From Gammaproteobacteria bacterium (lineage in GTDB: Bacteria; Pseudomonadota; Gammaproteobacteria; Ga0077536), in the NCBI GenBank assembly GCA_030833185.1, contig JAURHQ010000008.1, forward strand, positions 1-49,640: a stretch of DNA of 49,640 bases, written 5' to 3'. The notes under the pieces were generated by a model. It was not told the DNA's origin. It was given only the letters and a program-made list of their open reading frames with translations, and ran no database searches. A program made the translations under genes and the position numbers. Of this stretch, positions 12,204 to 21,188 are shown one piece after another (position 1 is the stretch's first letter; every line of letters begins with the position of its first letter).

Positions 12204-12602
12204 TTAATCCCCGTCCTGCACCGCCTGCGGCAAGCAGATCGCCGGATCCTCAGTCGACTCGAACACCACCCGCACGCGCTGGCCGATGGTGGGTGCAGTT
12301 TGCGGATCGCGCAGCGTCAGCAGCAGGCGGAAGCCTTCGTCCATATCCACCAGGACGAGCACATAGGGCACGGCCGACTTGAACGCCGCGCTCGGGGCGC
12401 GGGCTACGACGGTATAGCTGTGGATGCTGCCTTGCCCGGCCGAGCGGGCCCACTGTAGCGCGCCCGCGCAGCGCAGGCAGACCGCGCGCGGCGGAAACTG
12501 CGCGTGGCCGCAGTCGCTGCAGCGCTGATAGCGCAGCTCGCCCAGCGCCGTGCCTTCCCAGTAGGCGCGGCTGTCGGCGTTTGGATGGGGCAAAGGCATC
12601 AT
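12204..12602 (-). CDS. DUF35 zinc-ribbon/OB-fold acyl-CoA-associated protein
   Basis: 132 residues. The start is an ATGATG doublet at 12597-12602; the longer ORF in the track is not supported. An N-terminal rubredoxin-like zinc ribbon is complete (CSDC at 28-31, CLRC at 42-45) and precedes an OB-fold with GSIHSYTVVARAP and PYVLVLVDMDEG. Such proteins bind acyl-CoA and form obligate complexes with thiolase-fold enzymes, for example ChsH2-DUF35 with the Ltp2 aldolase in steroid side-chain loss. A thiolase-fold protein is encoded at the head of the same operon, which fits that partnership. It lies 23 nt after the methyltransferase gene. Confidence 0.9.
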   Translation of the reverse strand: MMPLPHPNADSRAYWEGTALGELRYQRCSDCGHAQFPPRAVCLRCAGALQWARSAGQGSIHSYTVVARAPSAAFKSAVPYVLVLVDMDEGFRLLLTLRDPQTAPTIGQRVRVVFESTEDPAICLPQAVQDGD

Positions 12603-12625
12603 GCGGGCACCGCGCCGGTGGTCAT

Positions 12626-13873
12626 TCAGGCCGACGCCCCGTCGTCGGGCGCGATGGCGATCGACAGAAAGTCCAGCCGCCACAGCGCCTGCATCACGTT
12701 GCGTACCAGTTGCTCGAGCGCGGCCGGCTGATGCACGGGCAGCACGCCGATGGCTGCGGCCGCGACGATGATTTCGCGCAGCGAGCGTTGACCATCCAGT
12801 TGCTGAAGCAGCGCGAGTTGGACGGGGTCGAGGCCCATGCGCCAGTTGTAACGCGATAGCTCCCGCCCGTTCAGCGCGCAGCGATAACGCAAGGCGGGCA
12901 CGTAATCGAGCGCCGCCGCGCTGGCAAAGTCGATCTGGTATCGGGCGGGCGGGCGCTCTGGCCGGCAGGCCGTGAAGAAATGGCAGCCGTTGCGGAAGTT
13001 CACCCGCTCCATGATCGCCCACTGCTTTTCTTCCGGCAGCGCCGCGACCGCTTGATAGAAACTGCCCGGCGCGCCAAGCGGCGGGTAGTAGGGCGCCTTG
13101 ATGAACATATCCTGGAAGACGAGCCCGGCGCCGTTCACAAGGTCGCGGCACTCGGTGGTGGTATAGCTGCGGTCGCGGCCATGGAGGAAGGTGTCGACCA
13201 GTCCAGCGTCGAAGGACAGATCCGGGGCCATCGCAAGATACGGTCGAAGCGGATGGTCATCGGGCAGACAGTCGATGCCCTCTTTCACCATCAGCAAGGA
13301 GGCGTCGTTCTGGCGCAGCCCGAGTTCCCTGAACACGCTCTGCATCATCTCGACGCCCAGCCGGCCATAGGTGGCGTAGAGCATGATGGCGGCCACGCCG
13401 TCAGGGCGCAGGCATGCGGCCAGGGCGTTCATGCCGATCTGCGGATCGGCCATGTGATGCAGCACGCCGGTCGAGACAATGAGGTCGAAATCCCGCTGTA
13501 AACCGCCGGCTTCCTCGATCGGGAGCAGGTGGAGGCTGAGGTTCTTGAGGCTGTATTTTTCTTGCAGAAACCGCTGGTGGTCGAGGGAGGCCTGACTGAC
13601 GTCGATCGCCACCACCTGTGCCTCGGGGTTGTTGTAGGCAAACACGGCGGCCTGATTGGTGCCGCAGCCGGCGATGAGGATGTCGATCGCCGGACGGTAT
13701 GCGCGGTCAGGCCACAACAGCCGGTGCGCGTGGCTGGGGTCAAACCACTGCCAGTTCTGCTTCAGCCAGCCGGGGAGATCGAAAATTGGTTCGGGGTAGC
13801 GCCAGTGGCGGTACTGGTCGGACACGACATCGGCAAGGGGATCGGCGGTCATGGCGCTAGCATCCTCGTTCAT
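12626..13873 (-). CDS. SAM-dependent methyltransferase with C-terminal PqqD-like extension
   Basis: About 415 residues from the ATG at 13873 (AGGG 5 nt upstream). The ORF-track ATG is 8 codons earlier and lies within a small hairpin (CCTGC/GCAGG). The class I Rossmann domain has motif I ILIAGCGTNQAAVFA, an acidic end of strand 2 (VVAIDVS) and a post-I VSTGVLHHMADP motif. The last 60 residues (LLQQLDGQRSLREII, then LVRNVMQALWRLDFL) look like a small winged-helix or PqqD-type module. It sits between the thiolase-fold and DUF35 genes, an unusual place for a methyltransferase in a presumed aldolase operon. The substrate is unknown; it could be a CoA-pathway acid or a regulator. Confidence 0.85.
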   Translation of the reverse strand: MNEDASAMTADPLADVVSDQYRHWRYPEPIFDLPGWLKQNWQWFDPSHAHRLLWPDRAYRPAIDILIAGCGTNQAAVFAYNNPEAQVVAIDVSQASLDHQRFLQEKYSLKNLSLHLLPIEEAGGLQRDFDLIVSTGVLHHMADPQIGMNALAACLRPDGVAAIMLYATYGRLGVEMMQSVFRELGLRQNDASLLMVKEGIDCLPDDHPLRPYLAMAPDLSFDAGLVDTFLHGRDRSYTTTECRDLVNGAGLVFQDMFIKAPYYPPLGAPGSFYQAVAALPEEKQWAIMERVNFRNGCHFFTACRPERPPARYQIDFASAAALDYVPALRYRCALNGRELSRYNWRMGLDPVQLALLQQLDGQRSLREIIVAAAAIGVLPVHQPAALEQLVRNVMQALWRLDFLSIAIAPDDGASA

Positions 13874-14021
13874 TGCACCCTGCGCGGGCAGGGACATTCA
13901 GCATTTGTCTGCGGGATCCATCGCCTGTGAGGTCGGGGCCAGGGTCGTCCGTGGGCGCCGCGCCGCGCGGTCGGGTGGGCCGCGCGGCGCGTATTGTGCG
14001 ACGGCCGCCTGAGGGGCGTCA

Positions 14022-15182
14022 TCACGCGCGGACCAGCACCAGCGAGCAATGCGCCGACAGCACGCCGCCGTCGCCGTGGACGAAGGCGAGTTCGGCATCA
14101 CGGACCTGGCGTGCGCCGCACTCGCCGCGCAGTTGGCGCACCGCCTCCACCACATGAAACATGCCGCCGGCCGCGCCGGAATGGCCGAAGGACAGGAGCC
14201 CGCCGTGGGTGTTGCAGGGCAGGCGTCCGTTGAGGCCAAGTTCGCCGCGCGCCGCGGCCGGGCCTGCTTCGCCGCGTTGGAAGAAGCCGATCGATTCCAG
14301 TTCTACCAGCAGCGTGATGGTGAAGGAGTCGTAGATTTCGGCGACATCAATGTCGGTGGTCTTCACGCCGGCGCGTGCAAACGCGCGGGCAGCCGCCTGC
14401 TTGCAGCCAAAATCGGTCAGCGAGGGTGCTGCGATCAGGTGTTCGTGGGTATGACCTTGCCCGGCCCCGAGCAGGCGCACGCGCGGCGCGCGCAGGTCGG
14501 CGGCGGTGTCGGCCGCGCTGACGATTACCGCCGCGCCGCCGTCGGAAATCAGGCAGCAGTCCAGCAGCCGGAGCGGCGAGGCAATGGTCCGTGAGTGCAT
14601 GACCTCATCCAGCGTGATCGGCGTGCGCTGGTGGGCGTCGGGGTGGAGCGCAGCGTGGGCGCGATGCTGGACGGCAATCGCGGCGAGTTGTTCGACGGTG
14701 GCGCCCGTCTCGTGCAGGTAGCGCTGCGCGACCAGCGCATAAGCCGCCGGGATCGACAGGCCATAGGGCACTTCAAACTCCGGATGACCGAAACCGGCCA
14801 GTGCCGCGACGGCGCCGTCGCGGCTCATGCCGGAAAGGCGATTGTCGGCCGTCACGCACAGCACATGGCGCGCATAGCCGGCTTCGACCAGTGCTGCCGC
14901 CTGCATGATCATCGTCGCGCCGGTGGCGCCACCCAGCTGCAGGGAAAACGTCACCGCCGGCTGAATCCCCATGTACTCGCAGAATACGGAGCTCAACATG
15001 GGATAAGGCTCGACGAAGGAGTAGGCGCAAATCACGCCGTCGACGTCGCGCAGGCTGAGGCCGGCATCGGCCAGCGCGCCCTGGGTTGCTTGCGCGTGGA
15101 GGCCAAGGCAGCTGGCCTCGGGCAAGGCGCCAACGCGGGTATTGCCTACGCCGCTCAGCAACGCGGAGTGCCGGTGAGTCAT
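14022..15182 (-). CDS. Thiolase-fold protein (SCP2/Ltp2-like) lacking the nucleophilic Cys
   Basis: 386 residues from ATG 15182; the ORF extends upstream, but MTHRHSALLSGVGNTRVG is the normal family start. At the thiolase nucleophile position the sequence is LQLGGATGATM, with Gly85 where CASG/CATG would carry Cys. Later motifs typical of the SCP2-like group are intact: VAEIYDSFTITLLVELE and NTHGGLLSFGHSGAAGG. This combination, together with a DUF35 gene in the operon, resembles the Ltp2-type retro-aldolases of steroid catabolism. Cleavage of a beta-hydroxyacyl-CoA is inferred; thiolysis is unlikely. The gene is divergent from the DUF1302 operon, with about 155 nt of shared promoter region. 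Confidence 0.87.
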   Translation of the reverse strand: MTHRHSALLSGVGNTRVGALPEASCLGLHAQATQGALADAGLSLRDVDGVICAYSFVEPYPMLSSVFCEYMGIQPAVTFSLQLGGATGATMIMQAAALVEAGYARHVLCVTADNRLSGMSRDGAVAALAGFGHPEFEVPYGLSIPAAYALVAQRYLHETGATVEQLAAIAVQHRAHAALHPDAHQRTPITLDEVMHSRTIASPLRLLDCCLISDGGAAVIVSAADTAADLRAPRVRLLGAGQGHTHEHLIAAPSLTDFGCKQAAARAFARAGVKTTDIDVAEIYDSFTITLLVELESIGFFQRGEAGPAAARGELGLNGRLPCNTHGGLLSFGHSGAAGGMFHVVEAVRQLRGECGARQVRDAELAFVHGDGGVLSAHCSLVLVRA

Positions 15183-15338
15183 GGGGTTTTCTTCAGGCCT
15201 TGATCGGGTAAGAAAGACGCGTGTTCTGCCTTGAAACATCCCCCACCTGGAGGGGGTTCTGCCTGCTATCGCAGTGCGGGAGTGCGATGCCGGCGGGCAA
15301 GCCCTAGCATCCCGTTCATCCAAGCATCCGGAGTCAGC

Positions 15339-16883
15339 ATGAGGCTTTCAATCCTTCGCACGCCGCGCGCGGCCTGCGTGCTGGTCTGCGCGCTGTCCGT
15401 CCTTACCGCCCAGGCCGGCATGATGGACGACGCGTTCTCGAAATTCGACCGTTCCATGGCAACGTTTAATCCAATCGGCACCTATATCCGCAAGCCGATC
15501 GAACGGCTCTCGCCGCGCCTGTCCTTCAAGGGCTACGTGCGGCAGTCGACCGACATCCTGATCGACCCGCAGGACACGGTGGGCTTTCGCGATCAGGACT
15601 TCCGCTTTCTGCAACTACAAAACCTGCTCGAACTGAAAGCCGGCTACAACGTCGCGCCGGGGCTTGATGTGAACGCCGTGGTGCATGGCATGTACGACGG
15701 CGCTTACGACTGGCAGAGCAGCCGGGGGCTGTATGCCGACCGCCTCGACCGCACGGCCGAGGTCTATAACACCGCCGAGCGCACGCTGCGCGAGTTTTAT
15801 GTGGCCTATCGCACGCCGTCGTTCGACCTGCTGGTCGGCAAGCAGCAGGTGTCCTGGGGCAAGATGGACGGCCAGTTCATCGACATCATCAACGCGATGG
15901 ACCGGCGCGAGGCGGTGCAGCTGGAAAGCGAGGACTACGAATGGCGGCGACTGCCGACCTGGATGGTCAACACGACCTTCCACTTCGGGCTTAATTCGCT
16001 GCAGCTGCTGTATATCTTCGGCTTTGAGGAAGACCGTCAGGCGTTGCCCGGCTCGCCCTGGTATTCGCCGGCCATTCCGCCGCCGGGGCTGGATATTCGT
16101 CGGCCGGTGCGGCATCCGCGCGACGGCGATTTTGGCGATCACGAATACGGCATGCGCTTCGACCGCGCGGTGGGCGCGCTGACCTATGGTTTTGTGTACG
16201 CCTACCTGTGGGATCGCAATCCGACCGACCACGTGCTGGGCACCTCACTCGTCGGCGGGCAGCGGGTGCTCGAATTGCAGGGCGAGCACGAGCGGCTGCA
16301 TCACTTCGGCGCGACGGCCGACTACGCCACCACGCTGCCGCAGTTACCGCTGTTTGGCGCGCTGCCGGCGGTGTTCCGCGTGGAAGCGCTCTATACCAAG
16401 GACGTGCGCTATGTGGACTACGCGAAGCAGGCTGCCGCGCGCGCCGGCCAGCTGAACGACGGCACGGATCTGCATGACACCCTGCGCGCTGCGGTCGCGA
16501 GCGAGTTTGGGCTGCCCGGCAACACCACGCTCATCTTCCAGGCGTCCTACTACCAGACCATCGACTGGCGGCCCAATCAGGGCTACGGCTTCGGCGGCGG
16601 CATTGGCGACGAATGGAGCCTGATCCCGCTGGTGTTTGTGTCCCGACCCTTCGCCTTCAGCCGCGACCGCCTGAGCGCGGCGCTCACGGTGTTTCCGGTG
16701 TTGAGCGGTCCCGTGCATGACTGGCAGGGTGTGAAGACCAAGCTGCGGGTGAAGTACAAGTTCTCGCAGTTCATCACCGGTCAGCTGATTTACACCAGCT
16801 ACGACGCCGCTGCGCCCACCGACTTCTACGGCCAGTACAACCAGTACGACAACCTGGGCTGGGAGATTTCCTATGAATTCTGA
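15339..16883 (+). CDS. DUF1302-family outer-membrane beta-barrel protein
   Basis: 514 residues from ATG 15339 (GGAG 6 nt upstream). A clear signal peptide ends around ALSVLTAQAG. The mature part has alternating aromatic and polar strands, for example LREFYVAYRTPSFDLLVGKQ and MVNTTFHFGLNSLQLLYIFG. It finishes with the C-terminal aromatic strand ending YEF that is recognised by the BAM complex. DUF1302 proteins are predicted outer-membrane barrels that recur next to DUF1329 genes in hydrocarbon and steroid degraders, where substrate uptake is the usual suggestion. The DUF1329 gene starts inside its last 11 nt. There is no RND/MMPL transporter beside it, unlike many such loci. Confidence 0.9.
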   Translation: MRLSILRTPRAACVLVCALSVLTAQAGMMDDAFSKFDRSMATFNPIGTYIRKPIERLSPRLSFKGYVRQSTDILIDPQDTVGFRDQDFRFLQLQNLLELKAGYNVAPGLDVNAVVHGMYDGAYDWQSSRGLYADRLDRTAEVYNTAERTLREFYVAYRTPSFDLLVGKQQVSWGKMDGQFIDIINAMDRREAVQLESEDYEWRRLPTWMVNTTFHFGLNSLQLLYIFGFEEDRQALPGSPWYSPAIPPPGLDIRRPVRHPRDGDFGDHEYGMRFDRAVGALTYGFVYAYLWDRNPTDHVLGTSLVGGQRVLELQGEHERLHHFGATADYATTLPQLPLFGALPAVFRVEALYTKDVRYVDYAKQAAARAGQLNDGTDLHDTLRAAVASEFGLPGNTTLIFQASYYQTIDWRPNQGYGFGGGIGDEWSLIPLVFVSRPFAFSRDRLSAALTVFPVLSGPVHDWQGVKTKLRVKYKFSQFITGQLIYTSYDAAAPTDFYGQYNQYDNLGWEISYEF

Positions 16884-18204
16884 ACGAGCGGGTGTTCGCA
16901 GGCTGGTCGGCACGCTGTTGGGCGTGCTGATGCTTTGCGCCGGCGGCGCGCGGGCCGAGACGCCGACCTGGCGCACGTTGGCGCAACTGACCGAGGAGGA
17001 ACGCGCCCAGCTTGACCTTGCCACCAGCACGCCGCGCGATGCGCGACTCGACTATCTCCCGGCAGAGCCCTGGCCGTTCAAGGCCCCGTACACGGCCGAG
17101 GAAATGGGCTACCGCGCCGCCGAGTTCGTGCATATCTCGCGCTGGCCGCACAGCCTGGTCGACGTGTTTGGCGTAATCACCAGCTCCGGCTACATCAGCC
17201 AGGGCGCGGGCGTCACCTACATTCACCAGAGCGTGAAGCCGGGCTTCGAGTCCTACATGCACGATTTGCCGGCCGGGCAGGTTTATTCGCGCTGGCTGAT
17301 TTACAGCACCTTCCCGCCGCAGACCGAAGCCGAGCAGCAGCTGTGGGTACCGTATCGAACGGACGCGCAGAACCGCACAAAGATGGAGTTCTACGTTTAC
17401 GCGCCCAGCCTGCGCAAAGTGCGCCGGCAGCCGCAGCCGCGGCGTGACCAGCGCTTTCCGGACAACGCGCAGACCTTCGACGACGTGGTCGGTCGCGACC
17501 CCTGGGAGTTCAGCTGGGAACTGGTGGGTGCGGACGTCATCCAGCACACCGTCCGCTTTCCCTCGACCCGCCCCACCATATTTCTGAACATCCCGGGCAA
17601 AGGCTACGTCGAGACCAAGGTGGGCGATATCAAACCCATGGGCGATACCTACCCGTTCTATCGCCCGGACGGCGGCGTCGATTGCTGGGTGGTGAAGGCC
17701 ACCGTGCGCGAAGATCTGCTGCCGGGCTACAACGAGCACACGCTCATTTTCTGGCTCGACAAGCACTACTTCTATCCGCTGCGGATGGAGAAGTACGACG
17801 CCAAAGGCCAGTTGATGATGGTCGAAGTGCGTAACGCCAAGCAGGAAAACCCGGCGCGGGGCGAGTTTGGCTATGCTGCCTTCATGAGCAACTACTGGTT
17901 TCTCGAGCAGGATCTCCTGAGCTACAGCGTGCACGACGGCCACGAGCCGCGTGAGTGGACCGCCGAGCAAGCCGGGATGATGTTCACGCCCGAGTTCATG
18001 CGCCGGCAGTGGCTGGTGGAGCCGGTGCGCTCGCAGACCCTGATCGACGACCCGGCGCAGTACTACCTGCGGCCGGAGCTTTATGAAGGCCGCTTCCCCG
18101 AGGTCCGCAAGTTCGCGCTGGATCCGGTGCTGCGGGCGCGGGTGGACGCGCAGGAAGCTGCGGGGAAACTGGTCTTTGAAACCACCGGTGCCAATGCGCA
18201 GTAA
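16873..18204 (+). CDS. DUF1329-family periplasmic protein (LolA/LppX-like)
   Basis: 443 residues. The signal peptide spans about residues 1-28 (LVGTLLGVLMLCAGGARA) and has no lipobox. The body contains family-like stretches: YSRWLIYSTFPPQ, TKMEFYVYAPSLRKVRRQP, DDVVGRDPWEFSWE and KHYFYPLRMEKYDAKGQL. The fold is thought to resemble the lipid carrier LolA, so it may ferry hydrophobic molecules across the periplasm for the DUF1302 barrel; this is inference from family context. The start (ATGAATTCTGA) overlaps the barrel gene by 11 nt, and the lipoprotein gene in turn overlaps its end by 11 nt, which points to stoichiometric synthesis. Confidence 0.9.
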   Translation: MNSERAGVRRLVGTLLGVLMLCAGGARAETPTWRTLAQLTEEERAQLDLATSTPRDARLDYLPAEPWPFKAPYTAEEMGYRAAEFVHISRWPHSLVDVFGVITSSGYISQGAGVTYIHQSVKPGFESYMHDLPAGQVYSRWLIYSTFPPQTEAEQQLWVPYRTDAQNRTKMEFYVYAPSLRKVRRQPQPRRDQRFPDNAQTFDDVVGRDPWEFSWELVGADVIQHTVRFPSTRPTIFLNIPGKGYVETKVGDIKPMGDTYPFYRPDGGVDCWVVKATVREDLLPGYNEHTLIFWLDKHYFYPLRMEKYDAKGQLMMVEVRNAKQENPARGEFGYAAFMSNYWFLEQDLLSYSVHDGHEPREWTAEQAGMMFTPEFMRRQWLVEPVRSQTLIDDPAQYYLRPELYEGRFPEVRKFALDPVLRARVDAQEAAGKLVFETTGANAQ

Positions 18205-19126
18205 GTCCCTGCGGCTGGCGCTCGCACTCGGCCTCATCGCGACGCTCGCCGGCTGTGAACGCCCGCCGGCGGCACCGCCGGCCGTACTCAGCGGCGAGCC
18301 AGCGGGTCCGTACGACCTGCAATTGCGTCTGGCGCCGGCGGCGCCGCTGCCGGCACAGCCGACCCGTTTGCAGTTTCAGCTGCAGGAGACCACCTCCGGC
18401 CGTCCCGTCAGCGATCTGCAAATCGTGCACGAGCGGCGGTTGCATACCTTCATCGTGGCGCGCGATTTCAGCAGCTTCGCGCACCTGCATCAGGAAGACA
18501 GTGCCCCGCTGAGCGCGGAAGATCTGGCGGCCGGTCGGTTTGGGTTTGATTACAGCTTCCCCAAAGCCGGCCGGTATCGGGTACAGACCGAGTTCACCCA
18601 CCGCGACCGCAGCTGGTTGAAGTCTTTCGATCTGGATGTGGGCGAGCCGGCCTCCAGCCTGCCGCAGGTGGTGGATCTGGCGCGCTCGCAGACCGTAGGA
18701 CCCTATACCGCCACGCTGAGCCTCGCGCCCGCGGCGCCGCTGGTCGGGCAGGAGGTGGAACTGCTGCTCACGCTGGCGCGCGACGGACAGCCGGTGAGCA
18801 ATCTGCAGCTCTGGCTGGGCTCGGAAGTGCACGCGGCCTTGTGGCGGATGGACCTGCGCGAGTTTGCGCACACCCACAGCTACACGCCGGAGATGGCCGC
18901 GATGATGGCGCAGATGCAGGGCCATCGAATGTCTGCCGCGGAAAGCGCCGCCATGATGCTGACGATGTCGAGCAAGCCGGCGCAACTGGTGTTCCCGGGG
19001 CCTGCCGTGCCGCTGCGGTTTACCTTCCCCAGCGCCGGCATGTGGGTGATCTTCTGCCAGTTGGCGCCGGGCGGTGAGCCGGTGGTGTTTCGTTTCATGC
19101 TAGACGTGAACGCCGCGCCTCCGTGA
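18194..19126 (+). CDS. Lipoprotein with duplicated Ig-like domain and Met/His-rich loop
   Basis: 310 residues from ATG 18194; the longer ORF would run inside the DUF1329 gene. The lipobox LATLAGC gives a lipidated Cys at about residue 20, and CERPP does not carry the Asp inner-membrane retention signal. Two similar domains follow, each beginning with GPY and a LxLAPAAPL strand, so the protein arose by duplication. Both halves carry His clusters (HTFIVARDF/AHLHQE and HAALWRMDL/AHTHSY). The second has an insertion with eight Met and one His in about 29 residues (MAAMMAQMQGHRM and on). Such composition suggests Cu(I)/Ag binding. I do not recognise a named family beyond a resemblance to YtkA/FixH-type domains. 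Confidence 0.85.
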   Translation: MRSKSLRLALALGLIATLAGCERPPAAPPAVLSGEPAGPYDLQLRLAPAAPLPAQPTRLQFQLQETTSGRPVSDLQIVHERRLHTFIVARDFSSFAHLHQEDSAPLSAEDLAAGRFGFDYSFPKAGRYRVQTEFTHRDRSWLKSFDLDVGEPASSLPQVVDLARSQTVGPYTATLSLAPAAPLVGQEVELLLTLARDGQPVSNLQLWLGSEVHAALWRMDLREFAHTHSYTPEMAAMMAQMQGHRMSAAESAAMMLTMSSKPAQLVFPGPAVPLRFTFPSAGMWVIFCQLAPGGEPVVFRFMLDVNAAPP

Positions 19127-19698
19127 GCCGTGCGGCGCTGGCCGTCGTGTTGCTGGGCTGGGCGTTGCCGCTGTGGGCCGGCCACGGCCTCTTGAATGCC
19201 TTCGCCGGCATTGCCTGGCTGCCACCGGCCGGCACCACCCCGGATTCGCCCTGGTACGCCGCCGATCGCCTGCAGGAGCGCAGCGCGCTGGCGCTGGCGG
19301 ATGCGGCGGCAAGGCCGGATCTGATCGAAGCCATTGCGCGCGAAAAATTGGCCGAAGCCGAAGCCATGCTGAGGGCCGGCAAGCTCGACGCAGCCGCTAC
19401 CGCGCTGACGCACTGGCAGGCACTCGCGCAGACGCGGGTGGCAGAGGCGGCGCCAGCGCAGCAAGGGCAGGCGGTCAACGCCTTGCTGGAACAGCAGTAC
19501 ATTGCGCTGACCGATTATCTCGATTTGCCCCGCGCGCATCGGGTGCCGCTGCTCACCGCCACGCGGGCGGTGGCCAGCGCCTGTACGGCGTTGCTGGCGC
19601 AGCTCCCGCGACGCGAACGGGAGGGACTCTTTTTTCGGGCCGAAGAAGTACGCTGGTCGCTCGAGATGGCAGCGGCTGCCGATGAACAGGGCCTGTAG
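19123..19698 (+). CDS. Exported helical protein resembling DUF5667
   Basis: 191 residues starting with GTG in a GTGA overlap with the lipoprotein stop. A signal peptide is visible (ALAVVLLGWALPLWAGHG). The mature part is helical: PDSPWYAADRLQERSALALAD and IAREKLAEAEAMLRAGKLDAA resemble DUF5667 helical-hairpin domains of exported proteins. No catalytic motif is seen. It completes a four-gene set with the DUF1302, DUF1329 and lipoprotein genes and is probably a periplasmic accessory or chaperone-like factor. The family link is visual and moderate. Confidence 0.75.
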   Translation: MSRAALAVVLLGWALPLWAGHGLLNAFAGIAWLPPAGTTPDSPWYAADRLQERSALALADAAARPDLIEAIAREKLAEAEAMLRAGKLDAAATALTHWQALAQTRVAEAAPAQQGQAVNALLEQQYIALTDYLDLPRAHRVPLLTATRAVASACTALLAQLPRREREGLFFRAEEVRWSLEMAAAADEQGL

Positions 19699-19730: not shown

Positions 19731-21188
19731 ATGACGAAGCAGCATGAGGTGGTAATTATTGGCGCTGGCGGCGGTGGGCTTTGTATGGCCATCAAACTGC
19801 GCGAGGCCGGCGTGAGCGATCTGCTCATTCTGGAGAAGGCCGGCGGCGTCGGCGGCACCTGGTGGCACAACCAGTATCCGGGCGCCGAGTGCGACGTGCA
19901 GTCGCATCTGTATTCGTTTTCCTTCGAGCCGAAGCTCGACTGGTCGCGACCCTTCGCCGGGCAGGCCGAGATTCTCGGTTACATGAACCATGTGGCGGAC
20001 AAATACGATCTGCGCCCGCTGATTCGCTTCAATACCGGCGTTGCCGCCCTGACCTGGCAGGACGACCGCCACTGCTGGCGCATCACCACCCAGTCGGGCG
20101 AGGTGCTGGAAGCGCGTTACGTGGTCAGCGCGCTCGGCATGTTCAACGAAATTGTTTTGCCGGAGATTCCGGGCATCGAAGATTTCAAGGGCGAGTACTT
20201 TCATTCCGCGCGCTGGAACCACGCGGTGGACCTGACCGGCAAGCGCGTGGGCGTGATTGGCATTGCCGCCAGCGCCATCCAGTTTGTGCCGGAAATCGCG
20301 CCCAAGGTCGCGCAGCTTGAGCTTTTCCAGCGCACCGCCAACTGGGTCGTGCCCAAGGGCAACGCGCCTTACAGCGCCGAACAGCTGGCGGCATTTCGGG
20401 ACAATCCGGAACTGGTACAGCAAAGCCGCGACGAGATTTACAAGACCTGGAACACGCTCTGTACCTTCAACGACCGTGAAGTGCTGGCCGGCATCGAGCG
20501 CGCCGGCATGGAACGCCTGGCCGAGGTGAAAGACCCCGTTACGCGCGAGAAGCTGACGCCGCACCATCCGTTTGGCTGCCGGCGTCCGCTCTTTTCTGAC
20601 GTCTATTTCCCGGTGTTCAACCGCGACAACGTCGCCCTGCACACCGACCGGATCGACGCCATCACCGCGCAGGGCATTCGCACCGCCGACGGCGTGGAGC
20701 ACGAGGTCGACGTCATCGTCTATTCCACCGGTTTCAAGACCACCAAATACCTCGCCGCTTTGCGCGTGACCGGGCGCGCCGGACAGCCGCTCGAGGACGC
20801 GTGGAGCGACGGCGCACAGGCCTATCTGGGCGTGACGACGGCCGGCTTCCCTAACCTCTTCATGCTCTACGGCCCCAATACCAATCAGGGCTGCATCCTT
20901 TACATGATTGAGCAGCAGGTCGGGTACATCGTGCGGCAGATTGCGCGCGCCAACGCCGAGCAGCTCGCGTTCATCGACGTCAAACCGGAAGTCATGCAGG
21001 CGTTCAACGACCGGATCCAGCAGGAGATCCGCGGCGTTGATGTGTGGCAGGCGGAATGCGGGGGCGAGTTCTACTACCGCTCCGCCAGTGGTCGCTTCGT
21101 GACGCAGTGGCCGAACTCGATGGACGCCTTTCGTGAGGCGACGAGCCGGGCGGACAGCGAGGCCTACGTGTCGGCGGCCCTTGCGTGA
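19731..21188 (+). CDS. Flavin-containing (Baeyer-Villiger-type) monooxygenase
   Basis: 485 residues; GGAGAG lies just before the ATG. The FAD dinucleotide motif is VVIIGAGGGGLCMA (about 7-20), followed by GGTWWHNQYPGAECDV. The type I Baeyer-Villiger fingerprint FxGxxxHxxxW is present as FKGEYFHSARW (about 158-168). The NADPH motif is altered: VIGIAASAIQ has Ala where the second Gly of GxGxxA is expected. It should oxidise a ketone to an ester or lactone with NADPH and O2, or hydroxylate a soft nucleophile. It lies 32 nt after the envelope operon, so it is probably co-transcribed. That suggests the transported substrate or its ketone product is its target. Confidence 0.92.
   Translation: MTKQHEVVIIGAGGGGLCMAIKLREAGVSDLLILEKAGGVGGTWWHNQYPGAECDVQSHLYSFSFEPKLDWSRPFAGQAEILGYMNHVADKYDLRPLIRFNTGVAALTWQDDRHCWRITTQSGEVLEARYVVSALGMFNEIVLPEIPGIEDFKGEYFHSARWNHAVDLTGKRVGVIGIAASAIQFVPEIAPKVAQLELFQRTANWVVPKGNAPYSAEQLAAFRDNPELVQQSRDEIYKTWNTLCTFNDREVLAGIERAGMERLAEVKDPVTREKLTPHHPFGCRRPLFSDVYFPVFNRDNVALHTDRIDAITAQGIRTADGVEHEVDVIVYSTGFKTTKYLAALRVTGRAGQPLEDAWSDGAQAYLGVTTAGFPNLFMLYGPNTNQGCILYMIEQQVGYIVRQIARANAEQLAFIDVKPEVMQAFNDRIQQEIRGVDVWQAECGGEFYYRSASGRFVTQWPNSMDAFREATSRADSEAYVSAALA

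Follow-up and report, generated by a model that had tools for sequence, protein, structure and literature searches.

The closest described relative of the gene cluster considered here is AmeABCD of Castellaniella defragrans, which comprises a DUF1302 protein, a DUF1329 protein, a YCF48 protein (AmeC), and an HAE3-type RND transporter (AmeD). The DUF1302/DUF1329 pair, AmeA/AmeB, acts on monoterpenes, and deletion of AmeABCD lowers monoterpene tolerance (PMC6394551). PP_0765/PP_0766 of Pseudomonas putida (with PP_2018/PP_2019) is likewise a DUF1302/DUF1329 pair, predicted to form a barrel–carrier complex, and is needed on Tween 20 (PMC10866462). It uses an RND transporter encoded elsewhere, and no lipoprotein/DUF5667 pair is reported there. 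According to a study cited in PMC13101534, a DUF1329 gene is needed for growth on phenanthrene. The two families have also been linked to monoterpene growth and to aromatic regulons.

The locus described here joins a DUF1302/DUF1329 pair to different partners. The window, meaning the whole stretch of 49,640 nucleotides that was analyzed, makes up a single contig of a draft genome of 4.4 Mb. Its uncultured order is apparently Ga0077536, judging from named records that include the MAG Ga0077536; in papers this is an order of hydrocarbon-degrading, possibly methane-oxidizing Gammaproteobacteria. The four genes of the cluster and the gene that follows them are:

15339–16883, + strand: DUF1302 outer-membrane beta-barrel protein, 514 aa, with signal peptide (PF06980)
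16873–18204, + strand: DUF1329 LolA-like periplasmic protein, 443 aa, with signal peptide (PF07044 and PF17131)
18194–19126, + strand: tandem YtkA-like Ig-domain lipoprotein, 310 aa, ATG start (PF13115)
19123–19698, + strand: DUF5667 exported helical protein, 191 aa, GTG start (PF18915)
19731–21188, + strand: flavin monooxygenase, FMO/BVMO-like (PF13738/PF00743), 32 nt downstream of the cluster

An earlier note on this DNA had described four overlapping reading frames, and the overlaps are indeed there, at 11 nt (DUF1302/DUF1329), 11 nt (DUF1329/lipoprotein), and 4 nt (lipoprotein/DUF5667). Its family calls were also correct, with scores above the curated Pfam cutoffs for the DUF1302 protein (45.9 bits against 23.2), the DUF1329 protein (PF07044, 42 bits against 23.1), and the DUF5667 protein (46.1 bits); the DUF1329 protein also matches PF17131 at 39.7 bits. 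Each of the four genes has a dN/dS of 0.03–0.19 against close relatives, indicating purifying selection. Their pairwise distances correlate (r 0.83–0.94), a value to which shared descent also contributes.

Like AmeABCD, the cluster encodes a DUF1302 barrel and then a DUF1329 periplasmic protein in one operon, with a likely link to hydrophobic compounds. It differs in carrying a tandem-Ig lipoprotein and a DUF5667 protein, with no adjacent YCF48 or RND gene, and in having DUF1302 and DUF1329 proteins of a divergent subfamily. The same genome has a canonical-looking DUF1302, YCF48, and MMPL cassette on contig C465 (L152, 3980–10052), and no homologue of the YCF48 or MMPL protein of that contig was found in any fetched cluster locus. 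Without YCF48 and RND genes in its cassette, the cluster falls short of the full Ame definition and is best filed as an Ame-type variant with other partners. The searchable literature holds no example of the four-gene combination.

Conservation was followed in 36 genomes from 10 genera of the order, 28 of which have the lipoprotein. The complete cluster, in the same order and on the same strand, is found in 23 of 29 lipoprotein loci and spans six genera. This is what came of the gene-neighborhood search that the earlier note had called for: the lipoprotein and DUF5667 genes do occur elsewhere with DUF1302 and DUF1329, and a four-gene order kept in 23 loci is therefore not due to chance. A contig end interrupts four more loci, in which the remaining genes are consistent with the cluster, and the other two, which belong to a single genus, have the lipoprotein alone, on a very long branch. 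Of 24 DUF1302/DUF1329 pairs, 21 show the 11-nt overlap as called by script. Because the genes flanking the cluster vary from genus to genus, the cluster is an autonomous unit.

Outside the order, the scans recovered close relatives only from Binatota. Among 369 genomes across the class, the lipoprotein profile matched the window's order and two distant proteins, and matches to the DUF5667 profile and to the window-type DUF1329 profile (E 1e-20) were confined to the order. Across 399 genomes of the phylum, the lipoprotein profile matched the window's own genome and two distant proteins. None of the other three cluster genes lies beside the distant lipoprotein matches. A scan of one genome per species (84,980 species) added eleven loci, all of Binatota type, in which the lipoprotein and DUF5667 genes are adjacent and DUF1302 and DUF1329 are not alongside. 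These eleven were placed in the Binatota group by trees; some of the records bear a different or mistaken organism name. Five metagenome records with the title Klebsiella pneumoniae (CAMCQE, CAMAXW, CAMATU, CAMCBY, and CAMBFS; loci L067, L069, L073, L082, and L086) group with the window's order or with Binatota, and their titles look wrong.

The lipoprotein has a lipobox, LAGC, at residues 18–21. The +2 residue, used to read membrane sorting, is mixed among homologues, mostly E, G, T, or W, with D in four from the window's order and in one from Binatota. An AF2 model (pLDDT 92) has two tandem Ig-like domains, and the two halves are homologous by profile–profile alignment (hhalign E 7e-19), which upholds the domain duplication proposed earlier. 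The alignment brings into register a His triad in the first domain (His84-His97-His99) and another in the second (His213-His226-His228); both triads, together with His79 and Glu211, are invariant in all aligned homologues from the window's order and Binatota. A Met-rich loop at about residues 231–268 is found in all cluster-type homologues, with 6–11 Met per 31–42 residues. The earlier description of the protein as Met/His-rich thus holds for the invariant His residues and for the Met clustered in one conserved loop but not for overall composition, which is only about 3% His and 4% Met. The solitary lipoproteins (L056 and L057) are very diverged; they keep the His set and have lost the Met-rich loop, with 2 Met left.

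This arrangement of His and Met, as read from the sequence, is the pattern of copper-handling proteins. In Bacillus subtilis, the YtkA-domain proteins CtaK and YcnJ function in copper delivery to oxidases, and CtaK is a membrane-anchored lipoprotein (PMC13344008). The cluster lipoprotein has a YtkA-like domain in common with them and differs in its two tandem domains, its Met-rich loop, and its DUF1302/DUF1329 context; the match itself is weak, at 28.4 bits against a curated cutoff of 25.9 for PF13115, and of 23 members, 14 match YtkA at E 0.1 or lower. The copper role of CtaK and YcnJ, the invariant His residues, and the conserved Met loop count in favor of probable copper binding by the lipoprotein, at its two His triads and its Met-rich loop. 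Against this stand the weak YtkA match and the fold search, which returned generic Ig-type matches with no copper-protein fold prominent in the PDB. A PDB sequence search with the lipoprotein gave no match. Homology to acc1, an accessory protein linked to the copper membrane monooxygenase (CuMMO), was considered and dropped at an hhalign probability of only 34%.

The DUF5667 protein has an invariant Gly-His at its predicted mature N terminus and invariant columns in a C-terminal FF..EE..W motif. Its AF2 model is a confident helical bundle (pLDDT 92.6) for which no PDB relative was found, sequence matches being at chance level and the fold search giving nothing significant. No paper on the DUF5667 domain turned up in the searched literature, and the cluster supplies a genomic context for an exported member. 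The DUF1302 protein belongs to a divergent subfamily common to the window's order and Binatota and had no match in a PDB sequence search. The same search with the DUF1329 protein gave only weak LolA-like matches, and this protein stands apart from the ordinary DUF1329 paralogues in its own genome (188–191 bits).

The earlier note had suggested that the downstream monooxygenase may be the first enzyme. The flavin monooxygenase is probably cotranscribed with the cluster in the window. Only four loci, all from the window's genus, have it beside the cluster, and its association is therefore local; it was rejected as a core member, and a role as first enzyme is not supported, given that it is not conserved beside the cluster. 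On the other side, the − strand (12204–15221) carries genes divergent from the cluster: thiolase-like and ChsH2-type ones (the latter with zinc ribbon plus OB-fold), separated by a methyltransferase gene. They may belong to side-chain degradation.

CuMMO is a copper enzyme that oxidizes methane and other small hydrocarbons, and in some Binatota and Ga0077536 genomes the window-type pair or the whole cluster is found near its pmoCAB genes. Window-type DUF1329 proteins occur in all seven Binatota genomes searched, scoring about 600 bits with the profile from the window's order. In five of six Binatota pair loci, the matching DUF1302–DUF1329 pair is upstream of pmoC-pmoA-pmoB on the same strand; the sixth pair is on an 8.2 kb contig. 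The one Binatota locus annotated in detail has a multicopper oxidase gene after pmoCAB and CoA-transferase genes upstream. Within the window's order, three genomes of one sister genus have the four-gene cluster and pmoCAB about 4–6 kb apart; in one of them, a short-chain dehydrogenase and an ABC transporter lie in the interval. None of the CuMMO operon descriptions consulted includes these envelope genes. Relatives of the DUF1302 and DUF1329 genes beside CuMMO in an unrelated phylum suggest that the cluster serves as a supply line to hydrocarbon oxidation.

Twelve of the 36 genomes of the order have pmoA, including the window's own genome, in which the CuMMO operon is on contig C98. One pmoA genome is without the lipoprotein, and 17 of the 28 lipoprotein-bearing genomes, several of them near complete, show no pmoA. 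Co-occurrence of cluster and pmoA is not significant (Fisher p 0.22), and strict co-occurrence was not supported. CuMMO is therefore a likely, not an obligate, partner. For the window's genome, the CuMMO on the other contig is a better-supported functional partner than the adjacent flavin monooxygenase.

Two further observations concern the CuMMO loci. A small periplasmic protein flanks pmoCAB in both the window's order and Binatota (L169, on the window genome's contig C98, 2971–3594; L199, 2283–2855 and 6270–6842). Its mature N terminus is predicted to be HGG, or HRD in the second of the Binatota copies; His, Asp, and Cys occupy invariant positions, the members scanned have no Pfam match, and the protein may partner the monooxygenase in handling copper. 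The Binatota genomes behind loci L081, L089, L090, L092, and L099–L101 also show a large expansion of DUF1329, with 15–21 matches each, and the DUF1329 gene is tandemly duplicated in several CuMMO-linked loci.

The reading we favor, tentatively and at somewhat less than even confidence, is that the cluster encodes a hydrophobic-compound envelope unit with a copper-binding lipoprotein that supplies hydrocarbon oxidation in the envelope. The four genes would act as one unit, presumably as a complex, in which the outer-membrane DUF1302 barrel and the LolA-like DUF1329 protein would carry a small hydrophobic compound through the outer membrane and over the periplasm. The place taken by the RND pump and YCF48 protein in Ame-type systems would here be filled by the lipoprotein and its DUF5667 neighbor, with the lipoprotein predicted from its residues to bind copper at the His triads and Met-rich loop. 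The unit is presumed to deliver substrate, and perhaps copper, to envelope hydrocarbon oxidation, including CuMMO where present. A hydrophobic-compound role is supported because known DUF1302/DUF1329 systems act on such compounds; the earlier proposal of an import or export machine for a hydrophobic substrate or a metal complex is thus supported as to the hydrophobic substrate, and a metal role for the lipoprotein is plausible. Linkage to pmoCAB in five Binatota genomes (of the DUF1302–DUF1329 pair) and three of the window's order (of the whole cluster), along with the CuMMO operon of the window's own genome, also counts for the unit, as do the keeping of all four genes together amid changing flanks and the purifying selection on each. 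Counting against it are the lipoprotein genomes without pmoA, the nonsignificant co-occurrence, the separation of its two halves into different loci in Binatota, and the reservations about the lipoprotein fold noted above. A more specific version is improbable, namely that the cluster is a dedicated outer-membrane supply of hydrocarbon and copper to CuMMO, common to the window's order and Binatota and retained afterward for other hydrophobic substrates where the enzyme was lost.

Among the alternatives, a dedicated copper system is unlikely yet fares best. The barrel would then admit copper or a copper complex, relayed by the DUF1329, lipoprotein, and DUF5667 proteins to CuMMO and other envelope copper enzymes. 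The Met-rich loop and invariant His set, the known part of YtkA domains in copper delivery, and a Binatota neighborhood of pmoCAB and a multicopper oxidase all fit such a relay. Elsewhere, however, the DUF1302 and DUF1329 families are associated with hydrophobic compounds, the cluster also occurs in genomes without pmoA, and the Binatota lipoprotein/DUF5667 pair is not beside pmoCAB. Less likely is an efflux or tolerance system of the AmeABCD kind, in which the cell would be protected from toxic hydrophobic compounds and an RND pump encoded elsewhere would provide the inner-membrane step. It would match the lowered monoterpene tolerance on AmeABCD deletion (PMC6394551) and a genome rich in MMPL/RND proteins, the C465 cassette included, but no RND or YCF48 homologue is near the cluster in any fetched locus, and that canonical cassette is already there with its own DUF1302 protein. 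That the DUF1302/DUF1329 and lipoprotein/DUF5667 genes are two separate functional pairs merely sharing a promoter in the window's order agrees with their different loci in Binatota but is improbable: both pairs co-occur in the two groups, and in six genera of the order they stay joined despite changing flanks.

Little is understood of how hydrophobic substrates and copper cross the outer membrane to reach oxidases of the envelope. The envelope unit favored here is compact and conserved, and its four genes give a testable prediction of a metal site. They also represent an uncharacterized DUF1302/DUF1329 subfamily that is tied to CuMMO in two phyla.
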